From Pararhodobacter oceanensis (GTDB taxonomy: Bacteria; Pseudomonadota; Alphaproteobacteria; Rhodobacterales; Rhodobacteraceae): DNA of 64,000 nucleotides. Made by a program: the position numbers and the translations under genes. Below, piece by piece: positions 21,235 to 59,888 of this stretch. Every line of letters begins with the position of its first letter. The stretch's first letter is position 1. The notes under the pieces are model-generated. The model made no database searches, was not told where the DNA came from, and worked only from the letters and a program-made list of their open reading frames with translations. The stretch covers positions 62,001 through 126,000 of the forward strand of contig NZ_QDKM01000007.1 in NCBI RefSeq assembly GCF_003076755.1, in the 5' to 3' direction.

Positions 21235-21574
21235 CCGCCCTCGCTTTACCCGTTCAAACTCAATGTCTTGCCAAAACCCTATAGAGGCCGCGGTAGTGGT
21301 GCAACGCCGCAACCGCCGAAGGGTTCCGTTCAGCGCCCGCGCGTTGTGGCCCCGACACCTTCGTCTCGGCCGCCCGTCAGCCACCCGCGGGCCTGCGACG
21401 CAAGGTTTTTCGCCGCAGCCCGCCTGCCCGCGCCTTCGCCGGTTTTGGCCCCCTTGCGCGCACGCGCGGAATGCTCCACAAATCGGGCACAAAGCGAGGC
21501 CCGAATATAACGAGCCGCCCGACAAAACGAGGCCCCTTGGCCCCGCGCACGAATTTGAACCAAAGGCGAACCCG
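21235..21574. other. 340-bp region upstream of cobS
   Basis: No gene seen. I looked for a cobalamin riboswitch (GCAGCC/GCCACTG/B12-box) and found none. From 21489 there is a direct repeat, ACAAAGCGAGGCCC (21489-21502) and ACAAAACGAGGCCC (21522-21535), 33 bp apart, 40-86 bp before the cobS start; possible operator. Confidence 0.5.
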
Positions 21575-51336: not shown

Positions 51337-52197
51337 TCAGGCGGCGCTGATCACCGCGCAGATCTCGTCCCATTGACGGCGCGTGACCGCGTCTTTGCCC
51401 GAGATCATCCAATAGCTTTCATGATGCGCCAGAACCTCATCGCCCAGTTGCAGCAACCGCCCCGTAGCCAGATCCTCGGCACACAGCGGCAATGACCCCA
51501 AGACCACGCCCATTCCCGCCCGCGCCGCGCCCAGCGCCGCGGCAAATGTGTCGAACTGAAGCTGCGGCACGGGCGTGGTCGGCACGTTAAACCGCGCGCA
51601 CCATGTATTCCAACCCGGCCTTGGCCCCGCGCAGGCAATCCGCGGCAAATCTGTCCATGCCTCTGCCTGCGCGCAGAGTTCCGGCGTCGCCAGCGGTGCG
51701 ATGCTCTCGGGGAACAATTGGCATCGGTAGGCCTGCGGCCAATCGCCCGCGCCATACCGTATCCCGATCACCTCTTCGGGTGGCGCATCATGGGCGCCCA
51801 GCACCATGGTTTGCACCGCCAATTGCCCGCCCGCGATGCGCCGCAACGCCGGCAAATACGGCAGCAACCATAGCGCAATCACCGACTGGCTGGCCGAGAT
51901 CACCAGCCGTTTGCGCGCACTGCCAAACAGCGCCTCGGAACTGTCGTGCAGCGTGCCCAGCGCGGACTGCACATGCGGCAACCACGCCTCGCCCTCCACC
52001 GTCAGGGTAATCGCCCGCGCCTGCCGGATGAACAGCACCGCGCCCAAGGTTTTCTCAAGCTGCGAGATCCGCTGGCTGACCGCCGACTGGGTGATCCCGA
52101 TATCCGCCGCCGCTGCGGTGAAGCTGCCACAGCGCGCCGCCGCTTCAAAAGCGCGGATCCATTCGAGGGGCGGCAGGTGGAGCGGCCGGTTAATCAT
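51337..52197 (-). CDS. LysR-family regulator divergent to tmpA
   Basis: 286 aa. N-terminal HTH LEWIRAFEAAARCGSFTAAAADIGITQSAVSQRISQLEKTLGAVLF, of the GcvA-like group, with a substrate-binding domain from ~90. It is divergent from the tmpA-tmpB pair with a 97-bp gap holding a LysR-like T-rich dyad (52222-52241). This arrangement suggests that it controls phosphonate degradation; the inducer might be trimethylaminoethylphosphonate or a product. That is inference from position. Confidence 0.85.
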   Translation of the reverse strand: MINRPLHLPPLEWIRAFEAAARCGSFTAAAADIGITQSAVSQRISQLEKTLGAVLFIRQARAITLTVEGEAWLPHVQSALGTLHDSSEALFGSARKRLVISASQSVIALWLLPYLPALRRIAGGQLAVQTMVLGAHDAPPEEVIGIRYGAGDWPQAYRCQLFPESIAPLATPELCAQAEAWTDLPRIACAGPRPGWNTWCARFNVPTTPVPQLQFDTFAAALGAARAGMGVVLGSLPLCAEDLATGRLLQLGDEVLAHHESYWMISGKDAVTRRQWDEICAVISAA

Positions 52198-52221
52198 AAG
52201 GCAATCGCCATCTCAGTCAGG

Positions 52222-54051
<1,830 letters not shown>

Positions 54052-54084: not shown

Positions 54085-54110
54085 GGAACCAACCGCCGCC
54101 GCTCGCCGTT
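54085..54110 (+). promoter_or_regulatory. ECF-type promoter (GGAAC-N17-CGTT)
   Basis: GGAAC at 54085-54089, then 17 bases, then CGTT at 54107-54110; 33 bp before the start codon of the small basic protein gene. This matches the EcfG (general stress) promoter consensus. Confidence 0.6.
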
Positions 54111-54143
54111 ATCCCTGTGATCCCTCCACGGAAAGGACACAGT

Positions 54144-54368
54144 ATGAGCACCGACAAAAAATCTCTTCCCGACCGGGAAAAAGCCTCGGATACCGACCGC
54201 GAGGTGCTGGGCGCGAAAGGTTCGGTTTCGCAAGGCGGGCGCGCGGGCGGACGTCTGGCGCGCGATATCGGCACCAAGGATGAACTCAAACGCTCGAATG
54301 AGCGGCCAGCGGGGAAAACCCGCGTCACCAAATCCGATGAAAAAGAAGGGGGCCGCGAGGATGGGTAA
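54144..54368 (+). CDS. small charged protein of unknown function
   Basis: 74 aa, highly charged, no hydrophobic segment and no known domain: MSTDKKSLPDREKASDTDRE, GGRAGGRLARDIGTKDELKR. Likely disordered. AAAGGA lies seven bases before the ATG. It overlaps the next gene by 8 bp, so the two are co-translated. Promoter of GGAAC-N17-CGTT type upstream suggests stress induction. Confidence 0.7.
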   Translation: MSTDKKSLPDREKASDTDREVLGAKGSVSQGGRAGGRLARDIGTKDELKRSNERPAGKTRVTKSDEKEGGREDG

Positions 54369-54822
54369 GCTCGACACAGGCGCATGGGTGCTGGTTGCCG
54401 ATAGCGAAAAAGCGCTGCTTTTGGTCAATGAAGGCGACCGCAAGGCGATGCATCTGCAATTGCTGCAAAAGGACGAGCAAGACAATCCGCCCTCGCGCGA
54501 GCAGGGCGCCAACCGTCCGGGTCGCGCGCAGGATGGCACCGGCCCGCATCGCTCGGCGCTTGATGACACGGATTGGCACCAATTGGCCAAAGAACGTTTT
54601 GCCGCCGATCTGGCCGATCTGCTCTATAAGCCCGCGCATCAGGGTAAATTCGACAAACTGGTGATCGTCGCCGCGCCTGCGGTTCTGGGCATTCTGCGCA
54701 GCGCCGTGCATGTGACGGTGGAAGAAAAGATCATCGCCGAAGTGCCGAAAAACCTGACCGATCAGCCACTTGACGAGATCGAGAAGCGGGTTGCCGAAGC
54801 CTTGGAACCGCTTGATCTCTAA
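54361..54822 (+). CDS. host attachment family protein
   Basis: 153 aa. AWVLVADSEKALLLVNEGDRKAMHLQLLQKDEQDNPPSREQG and HQLAKERFAADLADLLYKPAHQGKFDKLVIVAAPAVLGILRSAVHVTVEEKIIAEVPKNLTDQPLDEIEKRV match the host-attachment (AtsE-like) family. The name comes from a plant-attachment mutant of a rhizobium; biochemical function is unknown, and the family looks like a general cytosolic protein related to release-factor-like domains. ATG 54361 is the first codon of a clean family N-terminus. Follows the small charged gene. Confidence 0.8.
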   Translation: MGKLDTGAWVLVADSEKALLLVNEGDRKAMHLQLLQKDEQDNPPSREQGANRPGRAQDGTGPHRSALDDTDWHQLAKERFAADLADLLYKPAHQGKFDKLVIVAAPAVLGILRSAVHVTVEEKIIAEVPKNLTDQPLDEIEKRVAEALEPLDL

Positions 54823-54894
54823 GCGTCCATGGCCTTGCCGGACAATCGGGTAACGAAGCTCTTACAGCCAGAATAATTCTCAATTCATGAACAT

Positions 54895-54925
54895 CCGCCC
54901 GCGCCCACCCAACAGGCGCGGGCGG
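54895..54925. terminator. terminator-like hairpin after the host-attachment gene
   Basis: Perfect 11-bp stem CCGCCCGCGCC/GGCGCGGGCGG (54895-54905 with 54915-54925), 72 bp after the stop; no T-run. Confidence 0.45.
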
Positions 54926-55032
54926 CTCGCCGCGCGCAACCGGATGGCGCTACCCGGCCTCCCCGCCCCTCTGGCGGCCATCACCGGTTTCGGCGCGCGC
55001 CGTGGTTTACCGCCCCCTCCACCCGCAATATC

Positions 55033-55058
55033 GGAACCATTTCCGCCGCTCACAGGTT
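55033..55058 (+). promoter_or_regulatory. ECF-type promoter (GGAAC-N17-GGTT)
   Basis: GGAAC 55033-55037, 17 bases, GGTT 55055-55058; 39 bp before the small membrane protein start. One base off the EcfG -10 consensus CGTT. Confidence 0.5.
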
Positions 55059-55097
55059 GATTAAGCAAGCCGAAGTGACAGCGGAAAGGAGGGCATC

Positions 55098-55325
55098 ATG
55101 CCCGCACCTCTACGAAGTTTAATGGTTATTCTCTGGGTCAGCTGCGTCGCGGGCGCGGCGATTGTCGGGTTCCTGAGCATCGGCTGGGTGACATGGGTCG
55201 CCTTTGTCGTCGCCGGGCTTATCGGTCTGGCCATTGGCGTGCCAGCGGGGCTCTGGACCGCAAAGGCGATCAAACGCGACGATCCCGCATGGCCCCCGCG
55301 CCGCCTGCAACGCCAGCGACGCTGA
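55098..55325 (+). CDS. small two-helix membrane protein
   Basis: 75 aa. Two hydrophobic segments (LMVILWVSCVAGAAIVGFL and WVTWVAFVVAGLIGLAIGVPAGLW) are joined by a short GW turn, followed by a basic tail (KAIKRDDPAWPPRRLQRQRR) that should lie in the cytosol. No known family recognised. AAAGGAGG lies 7-8 bases before the ATG. A GGAAC-N17-GGTT promoter and a downstream terminator make it a single-gene unit. Confidence 0.75.
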   Translation: MPAPLRSLMVILWVSCVAGAAIVGFLSIGWVTWVAFVVAGLIGLAIGVPAGLWTAKAIKRDDPAWPPRRLQRQRR

Positions 55326-55336
55326 TCCCATTCATA

Positions 55337-55362
55337 CCGCAGCCGCAATGGCTGCGGTTTCC
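55337..55362 (+). terminator. intrinsic terminator of the small membrane protein gene
   Basis: Perfect 8-bp stem CCGCAGCC/GGCTGCGG (55337-55344 with 55350-55357) with a 5-base loop, followed by TTTCCATTTG, 11 bp after the stop. Confidence 0.7.
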
Positions 55363-55573
55363 ATTTGTCCTCGACGGTGAACCGCCTAGGGGCCTCAGCC
55401 GAACACCGCTAACCTCGTGGCCAATAAACGCCGCCTCTTGGGCTGCTGTTAACCATGCCCAAGGCATTCCGGCGCTATCCTCACCACTCCCCCCCAGTAA
55501 AATCCGCGTATCTCACCCTGCATGTGCCCCTCTGCGGTCAATGGCGGTTTTCCGCCGCGTAATCCACCATTTG
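55363..55573. other. gene-free stretch between the small membrane protein and PRC-barrel genes
   Basis: The gap from the terminator to the promoter of the PRC-barrel gene. Nothing recognisable; open frames here have no RBS or family resemblance. Confidence 0.5.
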
Positions 55574-55599
55574 GGAACCCCTGAGCGCCGCTTCTGGTT
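55574..55599 (+). promoter_or_regulatory. ECF-type promoter (GGAAC-N17-GGTT) of the PRC-barrel gene
   Basis: GGAAC 55574-55578, 17 bases, GGTT 55596-55599; 30 bp before the start codon. Third promoter of this kind in 1.5 kb. Confidence 0.5.
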
Positions 55600-55629: not shown

Positions 55630-55983
55630 ATGACCACGACAACCACGCGAAGCCTCGTTTCGTCCCATGATGTGACCGGCACCGATGTCTATGCCAATGA
55701 CGGCGCCAAGATCGGTCATATCGACCATATGATGATCGACAAACAGTCGGGCAAAGTCGCCTATGCGGTGATGGGATTCGGCGGTTTTCTGGGGATGGGC
55801 GAAGACCATCATCCGGTGCCTTGGGGCAAACTGCGCTATGACACGGTGAAACAGGGGTTTATCACCGATCTGACCGAAGAAGAGGTCAAAGGCGCCCCGC
55901 CGCGCAGTGCCGAATGGCCGGCCGACCCCGATTGGGAACGCCGCACCCACGCGCATTACGGCGTGCCGCTCTACTGGGCATAA
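55630..55983 (+). CDS. PRC-barrel domain protein
   Basis: 117 aa. The PRC-barrel beta domain spans residues ~10-80: LVSSHDVTGTDVYANDGAKIGHIDHMMIDKQSGKVAYAVMGFGGFLGMGEDHHPVPWGKL. Such single-domain cytosolic proteins are frequent members of alphaproteobacterial stress regulons; function unknown. The C-terminus (AEWPADPDWERRTHAHYGVPLYW) is typical of this subgroup. AAAGGAGGAG precedes the ATG. Confidence 0.88.
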   Translation: MTTTTTRSLVSSHDVTGTDVYANDGAKIGHIDHMMIDKQSGKVAYAVMGFGGFLGMGEDHHPVPWGKLRYDTVKQGFITDLTEEEVKGAPPRSAEWPADPDWERRTHAHYGVPLYWA

Positions 55984-56140: not shown

Positions 56141-56758
56141 ATGTGGGACTGGCTGGCGGATAACGCCTCACTTGTGCAAGCGGCGGTGGGCGCGATCACC
56201 GCCTTTGTCTGGCTGTTCTACCTGCAAATCCTCGTCTCGGGTTTGCGGCGTCAACGGCGCACCGATATCCTGATCCACCTCGGCGGCAGCCAGACCCTCG
56301 ACGCCAGAACCTTTGTCAGCAACCTTGGCTTCGAGCCGATCTATGTGCTTGAAATCCTGCTGACCGTCTGGACCGGCGACGGCGCCCGCGAGACCTCGAT
56401 TGTCGACCGCACCGAGACCCCGAAAAAGGATCTCACCACGCCCAGCGCGACGACTTTTCAAGGACCGCTCAAAACCGGAAATTTCGTCGATATCGGCAGC
56501 GTGCAGGACCTGTTGCAGCGCGCCCGTGGCAATATGACCGATGTGCTCGACAATGACGCGGTTAACCGGATCGAAGTGAAAGTGGCGGCGATTTCGGCGG
56601 CAAGCTCGGCGATTGTAGCGGCCAAACGCCAGTTCGAGGTTGAACCCGCAGAAGGCGACTGCCGCATCCGCCCGCGCACCCTCTACGCCACGCAAATCCG
56701 CTCGATCTGGGGGCGTTATTTCCTCAAGCGCGAGCTGCAGGCACGGTTGACGGAATGA
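56141..56758 (+). CDS. single-helix membrane protein of unknown function
   Basis: 205 aa. One N-terminal transmembrane segment (~14-34, AAVGAITAFVWLFYLQILV), then a soluble region with alternating strands (DILIHLGGSQTLDARTFVSNLGFEPIYVLEILLTVWTGDGARET). No catalytic motif recognised. The stop overlaps an ATG for the ExoD frame (ATGA), so both may form one unit. The ATG at 56141 was chosen because the membrane segment follows; the longer frame reads through the PRC-barrel terminator. Confidence 0.6.
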   Translation: MWDWLADNASLVQAAVGAITAFVWLFYLQILVSGLRRQRRTDILIHLGGSQTLDARTFVSNLGFEPIYVLEILLTVWTGDGARETSIVDRTETPKKDLTTPSATTFQGPLKTGNFVDIGSVQDLLQRARGNMTDVLDNDAVNRIEVKVAAISAASSAIVAAKRQFEVEPAEGDCRIRPRTLYATQIRSIWGRYFLKRELQARLTE

Positions 56759-56847
56759 CCGCGAACCTGCGCAATAAAGCTGGCACGCTTTGTCCCGATG
56801 CGGACCCTGCAGTGACAGCCCCCGCAGCCCCGAAGCAAGGGACCGAT

Positions 56848-57432
56848 ATGAGCGACGACCATGCCCTCAGCGATGTTCTTGACCGGCTCGAGGCGGCGCT
56901 CGGCGACGGCGACATCAGCGTGCAGGACGTGATTGAAACGCTGGGCGCACGCTCTTTTGCCTCGGTGATGCTGCTGTTCTCGCTAATCGCCGTATCGCCT
57001 GCCAGCACGATCCCCGGCGTGACCACCAGCGTGGCGATGGTCACCTTTCTGGTCGCCGCGCAGATGATGATCGGGCGCCGCCACTTATGGCTGCCCGCGC
57101 TGATCACCCGCCGCCAATTGCCCGCAGCCAAGCTGGCCCGCAGTATCAAATGGCTGCGCCGCCCCATCGGCTTTGTCGAGCGTCATTTGAAAGCGCGGTT
57201 AACCTTCTTATTGCAACCGCCGTGGCTGTATCTGCCGCTAGTGCTGGTGATGTTCCTCTCGGCGCTGATGCCGATGATGGAGTTTATTCCCGCCTCGGGC
57301 AGCCTTGCGGCAGCGGTGATCGCGCTCTTTGCCGCCGGATGGTTAACCCGCGACGGCGCGCTGGTCGGGGCGGCGGTTCTGGTACTGCTGGGCATCCCCG
57401 CGTTGATCTGGAGCCTCGGCCTCCCGGGTTGA
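56848..57432 (+). CDS. ExoD-family membrane protein
   Basis: 194 aa from this start. LSDVLDRLEAALGDGDISVQDVIETLGARSFASVMLLFSLIAVSPASTIPGVTT is the ExoD signature, followed by three more hydrophobic segments and RRPIGFVERHLKARLTFL. ExoD was linked to exopolysaccharide production and alkaline tolerance in Sinorhizobium; the molecular role is unknown. ATG 56848 has AAGGGA upstream and starts near the family domain; an in-frame ATG at 56755, overlapping the previous stop, would add 31 residues and cannot be excluded. Confidence 0.82.
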   Translation: MSDDHALSDVLDRLEAALGDGDISVQDVIETLGARSFASVMLLFSLIAVSPASTIPGVTTSVAMVTFLVAAQMMIGRRHLWLPALITRRQLPAAKLARSIKWLRRPIGFVERHLKARLTFLLQPPWLYLPLVLVMFLSALMPMMEFIPASGSLAAAVIALFAAGWLTRDGALVGAAVLVLLGIPALIWSLGLPG

Positions 57433-57662: not shown

Positions 57663-59567
57663 TTAACGTTGCCCGCGCAGCAGGCCGGTGATCCGGCGCA
57701 CCGCGACGCGGCGGTTTTGCTCTTCCGCCTGTTGCGTGCGGATCCGCAGGTAGCGTTCGCCGTAGCCCTGCACCACCATATTCTCGGCCGGCACATTGAA
57801 GTATTCGCTCAGTGCCAGAGCCGCAGATTCGGCGCGGCGGTCCGAGAGCAGCAGGTTATACCCCGCATCGCCCACCGCATCGGTATGGCCCTCGATGAGG
57901 AACACTTCGGTCGGGTTCTCGCGGATGATATCGCGCATCAGCACTCCGATTTCGCGCAATTGCTCGGCCTGCGAGGCACGGATCGCTGCTGAACCGGTGG
58001 CAAAGGTGATGCTGTCCAGCGTGATCTCGGGCGCAAGGTCGCGCACCTCTTTGATCTCGCGGATCTGGTTCAGGCTAAAGCCGCGCCCCGCGACCCGTTC
58101 ATCCGCCGCTTGCAGCGCCAGACGCAGGCTCTCGCGGTCGGTGCTTTCGCGGTAATCAAACCGCTCATAGGTCGGTGCTGGCAGGGTGCTCACATCGACC
58201 GGCTCGACGGCCTGCGTGTCGTCAAAGATCACATATTCGCGCCCGTTCGGCTCGATATGCACGCGGCGCAGCGCGCGTCCGGCGGGGTTGCGCACGGTGA
58301 TCACGCGGGTGCCGCTGGGGCGGGTGACGACGGTGCGGGTGGTGCCGTCGGCATAACGCTCGGTGCGCACTTCCGAGCCGGGTTGACGCAGCAGCGCGTC
58401 ATCGTCTTTAAGCAGCTGATACTCGCCCTCTTCATCGACCACCACCACGCGGTCGCCGGTATTCGCATCGACCCGCTGGCCGCTGCTCAGGATCGCGCCA
58501 ACCGCCAAGGCACCCAAGGTGAACAGCCCCGCGCGCTCAAGGTCGCTCAACCCGCTGCCACCCGAGGCTTGCGCTTCTGCCGAGGCGGTTTCTGCCGCGC
58601 CATCCTCGGGGGTCCATTCGCGAAATTCCTCACCGCTGGAGCGGCTCGTGGTTTCGGTGACGGTCTCTACGGTCACATCGGCCGAGGCACCGGAGTCGAC
58701 CTCGCTACCCGCAGCAAGCGCCTCGCGAGCACCTTCGCTCAATGTGCCAGCGCAGTCGATCAGTGCGTTACCCGACTGGGTCACATCGGCGCAATCGCCG
58801 CCCAAATCCAAGGGCGCGGCAGCATCGGCCGGAGCTTCGGCCATTGTATCTTCAGAGACCTCGCCCTGTTCCTCAACCTCGGCTTCGGCTTGGGTTTCGG
58901 TTTGGGCTTCAACTTCCGCTTCAGCCTCTGCCTCTGACTCAACTTGTGCCTCAACCGACGGCTCGTCGGTGGCCTCAGTCTGCGCATCGGCGGCAATATC
59001 TGCATCTGCCTCGACAAATGCACCGGATTCTACAGCCGCTGCATCAGCTTCAGCTTCAGCCTCAGTTTCGGCAGAGACCTCCGCCTCGCCTGAAGCTTCC
59101 GCTGCGGACAACTCACCGGCCAGATCGTCAACACTCGGCACACTCTGGGTAGCCGCATCAGCAGCGGCCTCCGCCTCGGCGCCAGCCTCCGCTGCCGCAT
59201 CGGCCCCGGTATCGCCCGCAAAATCGCCGCCATTTTCGACCGTGGTATCCCCTTGCGCCTCAACCTCGGCCTGATCCTCGACCTCAACTTCGGCCTCCGC
59301 TTCACCCTCGGCTTCAACCTCAGGCTCACCGGTCAGTGCATCTCCCGCAAACGGTAATTGCTGGATATGAAGTTCACAGGCCAAAGCATCGATGATCCCG
59401 CTCTCGGCGCAGACCTCTTCATTCGAGCGCGGCGTGTCTTGCTTGAACCCGGCCGCCGCCGTCGCGCGTTCTTTCGCGGCAGCGGATTGGGCCAATGCAG
59501 GCAAGGGTTGCATCATCGACAAGGCCACAAGCATTGCCGTGGTGGAGCGAAGGGACGCGGAATTCAT
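57663..59567 (-). CDS. OmpA-family protein with very long acidic repeat region
   Basis: 634 aa. Signal peptide (TTAMLVALSMMQPLPALAQ), then ~200 residues of Glu/Ala/Val-rich low complexity (many EAEAE, EVEAQ blocks, ~80-250), a short hydrophobic helix (AGLFTLGALAVGAILSSG) near 350, and a beta-rich segment with VITVRNPAGRALRRVHIEPNGREYVIF. The C-terminal OmpA/MotB domain (~510-625: LDSITFATGSAAIRASQAEQL, EVFLIEGHTDAVGDAGYNLLLSDRRAESAALAL) should bind peptidoglycan. No eight-strand barrel is seen. ATG 59567 has AGAGGAAAA upstream. Similar proteins exist in Rhodobacteraceae; the acidic length is unusual. Confidence 0.82.
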   Translation of the reverse strand: MNSASLRSTTAMLVALSMMQPLPALAQSAAAKERATAAAGFKQDTPRSNEEVCAESGIIDALACELHIQQLPFAGDALTGEPEVEAEGEAEAEVEVEDQAEVEAQGDTTVENGGDFAGDTGADAAAEAGAEAEAAADAATQSVPSVDDLAGELSAAEASGEAEVSAETEAEAEADAAAVESGAFVEADADIAADAQTEATDEPSVEAQVESEAEAEAEVEAQTETQAEAEVEEQGEVSEDTMAEAPADAAAPLDLGGDCADVTQSGNALIDCAGTLSEGAREALAAGSEVDSGASADVTVETVTETTSRSSGEEFREWTPEDGAAETASAEAQASGGSGLSDLERAGLFTLGALAVGAILSSGQRVDANTGDRVVVVDEEGEYQLLKDDDALLRQPGSEVRTERYADGTTRTVVTRPSGTRVITVRNPAGRALRRVHIEPNGREYVIFDDTQAVEPVDVSTLPAPTYERFDYRESTDRESLRLALQAADERVAGRGFSLNQIREIKEVRDLAPEITLDSITFATGSAAIRASQAEQLREIGVLMRDIIRENPTEVFLIEGHTDAVGDAGYNLLLSDRRAESAALALSEYFNVPAENMVVQGYGERYLRIRTQQAEEQNRRVAVRRITGLLRGQR

Positions 59568-59888
59568 AGCATTTTCCTCTCTGAAATTCGCTGGAAACTC
59601 ATCGCCCACAGCGGGCGTCTATCAGGCAACAACCAGTAATTTTCAAAACCGTTCCCCCATGCTCGGGCGCATCAGCGACACCCCGCGCATCCACATCCCT
59701 TGCCCAGCGCCTACCGGATTACGGTTGAATTACAGGCGCCTAGCAACACGCCTCCCGCCTGCGCAGAGTGCCGCGCAAGGGCTCTATAGCGGGCTCACTA
59801 TTTCTTGACATAGGCGCGATTTTTGCGGCTGATAAAGGCGGAGGATAGGTGTAAACCGCCATGTACACCGCAATCATGGAAACGGACC
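59568..59888. other. 321-bp divergent intergenic region (OmpA-like / histidine kinase)
   Basis: Holds both promoters. On the plus strand TTGACA at 59805-59810 is a good -35 element, with TGATAA at 59830-59835 a spaced -10 candidate (19 bases). A 12-codon open frame MYTAIMETDRAN (59861-59899) starts after GGAGG and ends inside the kinase start region. No gene otherwise. Confidence 0.4.

Follow-up and report, generated by a model that had tools for sequence, protein, structure and literature searches.

The window, by which we mean the whole stretch of 64,000 nucleotides analysed here from Pararhodobacter oceanensis, contains a compact block of small genes whose transcription units begin behind closely similar pairs of sequence boxes, raising the question of which sigma factor reads them and what their products might do under its control. 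The first-pass annotation had described GGAAC and (C/G)GTT lying exactly 17 bases apart and 30–39 bp before the start of each unit, and all three sites were confirmed on the plus strand. Counting from the last T of SGTT to the ATG, EcfG-type promoter 1 (GGAAC-N17-CGTT, 54085..54110) lies 33 bp 5′ of the gene for a 74-aa hydrophilic protein (54144..54368, +), which is followed by the gene for a 153-aa baeRF_family12/Host_attach protein (54361..54822, +). EcfG-type promoter 2 (GGAAC-N17-GGTT, 55033..55058) lies 39 bp 5′ of the gene for a 75-aa hydrophobic protein with two predicted membrane helices (55098..55325, +), and EcfG-type promoter 3 (GGAAC-N17-GGTT, 55574..55599) lies 30 bp 5′ of the gene for a 117-aa PRC-barrel protein (55630..55983, +; Pfam PF05239, 56.9 bits). 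Each of the three ATGs is preceded by a purine-rich stretch. Across the window, GGAAC-N16/17-SGTT occurs 6 times against 1.17 expected, with a maximum of 4 in 100 shuffles.

Other features of the window were recorded alongside the block. A possible fourth site (GGAAC-N16-GGTT, 59631..59655, −) stands 63 bp 5′ of an OmpA-family gene (57663–59567, −) with a long acidic, repetitive N-terminal part, and GGAAC-N16-CGTT at 21303–21327 (−) is found 68 bp ahead of a DUF808 gene. Directly before the block, at 51337–54051, are genes matching TmpA (NF049936, 587 bits, cut-off 400) and TmpB (NF049941, 347.3 bits, cut-off 300), the pair that degrades 2-trimethylaminoethylphosphonate; a LysR-type regulator is encoded divergently alongside. 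After the block, at 56755–57432, comes an ExoD-family gene (144.6 bits), and none of the strict sites in the window belongs to it.

The 4.08-Mb draft assembly of the source genome (32 contigs) was searched for phyR, nepR and ecfG, and a single locus on contig C3 was found to hold the regulators. There, nepR (302946–303041; NepR PF18557, 30.5 bits, cut-off 25.7) is, according to the listing of open reading frames and their family matches, directly followed by an ECF sigma gene and accompanied by a divergent phyR and a HisKA_2/HWE kinase gene. The PhyR protein carries both sigma-like domains and a receiver, scoring 349.1 bits against PhyR-family model NF006623 (cut-off 240), with PF22029, PF22233 and PF00072 all above cut-off. 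The sigma factor matches Sigma70_r2 and r4_2 and scores 285.6 against NF009198 (cut-off 270), a model with a generic name, its placement as EcfG coming from its neighbours. The kinase matches HisKA_2 (PF07568, 75 bits, cut-off 22.3) and HWE_HK (PF07536, 33.5 bits, cut-off 22.8), and falls below the cut-off of the PhyK model NF051872 (210.8 versus 750). EcfG-type sites were also found within this locus, upstream of nepR, a CsbD gene and a second PRC-barrel gene. The expectation that the system would be patchy in Rhodobacterales did not hold: NepR was detected in 25 of 36 genomes sampled from the same family, in 24 of them above the curated cut-off, and the system is not rare in this family.

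We then asked how often the motif occurs in the whole genome, a scan at N16–17 spacing that the first-pass annotation had put forward. By count there was no genome-wide excess of the bare motif over the reversed control, with 104 matches to GGAAC-N16/17-SGTT against 200 for the reversed pattern, and 76 to GGAACC-N12..19-SGTT against 246. The spacing profile, on the other hand, was uneven in the expected way: N16 had 19 GGAACC sites and N17 had 11, with between 4 and 11 for each of the remaining six spacings, and 13 of 15 GGAACC[AT][AT] sites fell at N16 or N17 (p about 9e-7, for an extension picked after the sites had been seen). Matches at C1:571263–575241, C6:182950 and C6:198309 of the source genome share an inverted-repeat-like sequence, GGAACG..GCGCTTTATGG..CGTT and similar, and are probably copies of a repeated element that inflates the motif counts.

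Comparison across relatives was more informative. A scan of named genomes for baeRF12 confirmed at least 534 loci, the best 80 of which were analysed; most belong to Rhodobacterales genera and some to other Alphaproteobacteria, and two (L186 and L188) come from one record. Another of these loci, L140, is titled Nocardioides marinus and has a typical alphaproteobacterial baeRF12 operon with an EcfG-type site; its record name is probably wrong. At least 300 bp of upstream DNA was available for 79 of the 80, and we scored as strict any GGAAC-N16/17-SGTT within 400 bp. Among these best 80 of at least 534 loci, a strict site was present in 58 of 79, at N16 in 26 loci and N17 in 33, one locus having both, whereas twelve other spacings together gave 4 locus hits in the same 79. 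Those other spacings put the chance expectation at ~0.008 per locus; the loci being related, a p-value computed from this is not to be taken literally. In the same best 80, site density was 1.90 per kb in the upstream stretch versus 0.083 elsewhere on that strand and 0.031 on the other strand. The strict site is missing from 21 loci in this set, 13 of which carry an N16/17 site with one mismatch, commonly TGTT in place of CGTT; across N17, N16 and N15 the one-mismatch sites numbered 10, 5 and 5, and only N17 rose above neighbouring spacings. The spacers between the boxes vary among relatives, which indicates that conservation is confined to the boxes.

The distribution of sites also follows that of NepR. 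Of 60 sampled relatives, 23 have a baeRF12-type match, with a strict site in 11 of the 17 that carry NepR and in 0 of the 6 that do not. Where the copy is close and from the same family as the source genome (the window's own included) and NepR is present, the strict site was found in 10/10. The six NepR-bearing genomes without a strict site comprise four whose matches are weak or distant (E 6e-11 to 7e-6) and two that belong to other families (G047 and G039).

The other two units behave similarly. The 75-aa membrane protein, which has a weak, below-cut-off likeness to Phage_holin_3_6, has relatives with a strict site 49–56 bp before the start of the match in 5/5 genomes with NepR and in 0/1 without. 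For the PRC-barrel protein, 14 of 43 matched places were examined, excluding the window's own copy and weak ones, and a strict site was present in 8 of 13 with NepR; the one place without NepR (L107) has no site. In both of these comparisons one locus truncated at a contig end, L103, was read with an offset of 46 bases. We also considered whether the three units form a conserved block, and rejected this: two or three of the units have close relatives in seven further sampled genomes (G006, G009, G010, G016, G019, G021 and G023), where they lie on different contigs. Each unit therefore has its own site, and the clustering seen here is local.

These data bear on two alternative origins of the sites. 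A GC-rich genome will yield GGAAC and SGTT at a 17-base distance accidentally, which would render the block meaningless, and both the expectation of about one match per 64 kb and the bare genome-wide count under its reversed control fit such an account; it is nevertheless of negligible probability, given that in diverged relatives the motif recurs in the corresponding upstream position at N16 and N17 only, in 58 of 79 loci where the other spacings predict ~0.008 per locus (best 80 of at least 534, loci related). It is on this comparison across relatives, not on genome-wide counts, that we reject a chance origin, and conservation upstream of relatives is the decisive control on the sites at the sequence level. 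A different ECF sigma factor with a similar −35 box could in principle own the sites, AAC in that box being common to ECF sigmas according to the available text of PMC7083833. The same text gives GGAAC-N16-CGTT as the EcfG form, a site also lies ahead of nepR-ecfG in the source genome, and the strict site before baeRF12 tracks NepR across genomes (11/17 versus 0/6), making a second sigma factor very unlikely.

The attribution of this promoter form to EcfG by the first-pass annotation was borne out by the regulators present in the genome, the site upstream of nepR and the sites kept upstream of relatives of all three units. The best explanation overall, to which we assign a probability of roughly 0.88, is that the three sites are the EcfG promoters of the three units; that EcfG uses these sites in this cell is, judged from sequence, very highly probable. 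Upon stress, the HisKA_2/HWE kinase would phosphorylate PhyR, phosphorylated PhyR would remove NepR from EcfG, and freed EcfG with RNA polymerase would initiate transcription at each of the three sites. Site 1 would then drive a two-gene operon encoding the small hydrophilic protein and the stand-alone baeRF_family12 protein, site 2 the small membrane protein and site 3 the PRC-barrel protein. The PhyR-NepR-EcfG cascade is established for the class, and we infer its operation here by analogy from the gene set.

This reading agrees with what is described for related systems. PhyR-NepR-EcfG is known from Rhodobacter sphaeroides (RSP_1272/RSP_1274), where PhyR is reported to matter mainly for membrane stress (PMC5830050), and from Sphingomonas melonis Fr1; the available accounts give the same regulator set and promoter form as found here. 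The S. melonis regulon likewise includes #3063, annotated 'Protein required for attachment to host cells' and changed by log2 −3.9 when ecfG is mutated, with a site 34 bp upstream, and #1478, a PRC-barrel domain gene (−4.5, site 27 bp); both are listed among the top EcfG-dependent genes (PMC6599016), and a 'host attachment protein', mlr3233, appears on a Mesorhizobium loti heat-shock list (PMC3989490). By comparison with R. sphaeroides and S. melonis, the available text of those reports does not mention by name the small protein encoded ahead of baeRF12, and the three units are adjacent here. The promoter finding adds members to the known EcfG regulon. In the literature searched, which lay largely outside subscription papers, no paper joined baeRF12, or 'host attachment protein', with EcfG by name; what appears new relative to that literature is that the EcfG-driven 'host attachment' gene would, judging by its model, encode a Balon/eRF1-like domain and be paired with a small protein.

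The small gene overlaps the baeRF12 gene by 8 bases. Its product has the consensus QGRxGGxLxRxVGTRDELKRAxERPAGxTRV and belongs to no Pfam family, a Pfam search of 13 members giving no match even at E 5. Among the best 80 of at least 534 baeRF12 loci, a small gene of the GRxGG...GTRDE type (a motif of our own making) precedes baeRF12 in 43. The strict site is present in 35 of those 43, and its position is kept relative to the small gene, not to baeRF12. Among 60 sampled genomes, a profile of the small protein matched in 8; each of these has NepR and carries the match immediately ahead of baeRF12. In one genome, a second, partial and weak profile match (L220, G006 C65:26104–26217, E 3.2e-9) lies away from baeRF12. 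The predicted structure was poor (mean pLDDT 60.9, pTM 0.21), with one helix at residues 37–53; the protein may be disordered or may fold on a partner. The window copy has a pI of 9.4. An ArfA-like reading, in which a basic tail would enter the empty mRNA channel, was not pressed, the family having a median pI of 6.1 with 24 of 33 members below 7.

The baeRF12 protein had been labelled a host-attachment protein, and this name stands in so far as Host_attach (PF10116) scores 132.4 bits, above its cut-off; baeRF_family12 (PF18856) scores higher on the same protein (159.3 bits, cut-off 27.7), placing it by Pfam in the baeRF-1 clade, and its model resembles a release-factor middle domain. The 'host-attachment' name for this gene is misleading. 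A structure predicted from 48 sequences (mean pLDDT 78.7, with loop 46–68 poorly predicted) gave Balon and eRF1/aRF1 as the best Foldseek rows. In VIA-align, Balon reached Z 13.0 (rmsd 3.1, 124 residues), eRF1 up to 12.4 and aRF1 12.3, which we count as tied, while the first unrelated rows scored 8.0. A search of PDB sequences with the baeRF12 profile retrieved neither Balon nor a release factor, the only rows at E up to 1 being those of an unrelated enzyme at 0.27. The reading frame covers a single middle domain, and the three-domain Balon layout was not found.

In the model, a conserved loop sits before the long helix, at the place where the eRF1 structure has GGQ. GGQ itself is absent from 47 of the 48 baeRF12 sequences and present in L177 alone, somewhere in the sequence. 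Around the loop, Q40 is kept in 46 of the 48 sequences, N42-P43 in 48, Q48 in 46, G54 in 48, R55 in 47 and S65 in 47, and beyond it D71, W72 and H73 are kept in 48, 47 and 47. The family is acidic, with a median pI of 5.2 and a net charge of −8.

Several known proteins offer a comparison. Genes for the hibernation factor Balon are frequently located in stress operons (PMC10901736). The middle-domain fold of Balon (PDB 8rd8, 8v9j) is shared with the baeRF12 model, but the protein here, at 153 aa, lacks both the decoding-centre and the EF-Tu-binding domains of Balon and bears no profile-detectable sequence relation to it. The eRF1/aRF1 middle domain likewise shares with baeRF12 the fold and a long loop before a long helix, although baeRF12 has no GGQ at the loop. 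In the available text of Burroughs and Aravind 2019 (PMC6514570), baeRF-1 proteins are proposed to enter the A site and to have a role in shutting down translation, and are tied to HPF by gene neighbourhood, whereas baeRF12 is here tied to EcfG promoters. We looked for EcfG co-regulation of HPF/RaiA in the source genome, and found no EcfG-type site in the 1.5 kb upstream of that gene. Burroughs and Aravind describe the loops of most reduced baeRF-1 families as poorly kept, unlike the strongly kept loop of baeRF12.

How the baeRF12 protein would serve a stress response is less certain than its promoter. From its likeness to Balon and eRF1, the protein may act on the ribosome during stress, a reading we hold tentatively and at somewhat less than even odds: in the manner of the Balon and eRF1 middle domains, its loop would enter the peptidyl-transferase centre, either to hold idle ribosomes or to free stalled ones. 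An acidic protein would be odd as an rRNA-binding domain, and the missing GGQ, the absence of both flanking Balon domains, the lack of a profile relative in the PDB and an HPF gene without a site all argue against a ribosomal role; a common fold alone proves no function. Slightly more probable, and approaching an even chance, is that EcfG control is real and baeRF12 does not bind ribosomes, acting for instance on another RNA or as a binding partner of the small protein. The same acidity, missing GGQ, absent flanking domains and uncoupled HPF favour this, while the loop, strongly conserved across 48 sequences and placed where the GGQ loop lies, and the case made by Burroughs and Aravind for insertion of baeRF-1 domains into the A site (PMC6514570, in the text available) weigh against it. 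Taken at its word, the Pfam description of PF10116 ('Protein required for attachment to host cells') would make the protein a surface or secreted adhesion factor, with stress control serving attachment. This is improbable, since besides the better baeRF_family12 score and the resemblance of the model to ribosome-bound factors, relatives occur in many marine genera and no signal peptide was seen by eye at the translated start. More specific than the ribosomal reading, and doubtful, is a previously undescribed two-part ribosome factor, induced by EcfG in Rhodobacterales and some neighbours, in which idle ribosomes would be plugged or cleared by a stand-alone Balon/eRF1-like middle domain (loop Q..NP....Q.....PGR) together with its small partner.

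If only the promoter part of our explanation is true, the result is one of regulon annotation. Named relatives and spacing controls together indicate that regulation by the general stress sigma factor is widely conserved for a gene commonly annotated as 'host attachment', whose product resembles ribosome-bound factors. If the ribosomal reading is true, control of stress transcription and ribosome dormancy would meet in one operon in many marine and soil bacteria; and if the two-part factor is true, the stress response would reach directly into the peptidyl-transferase centre.
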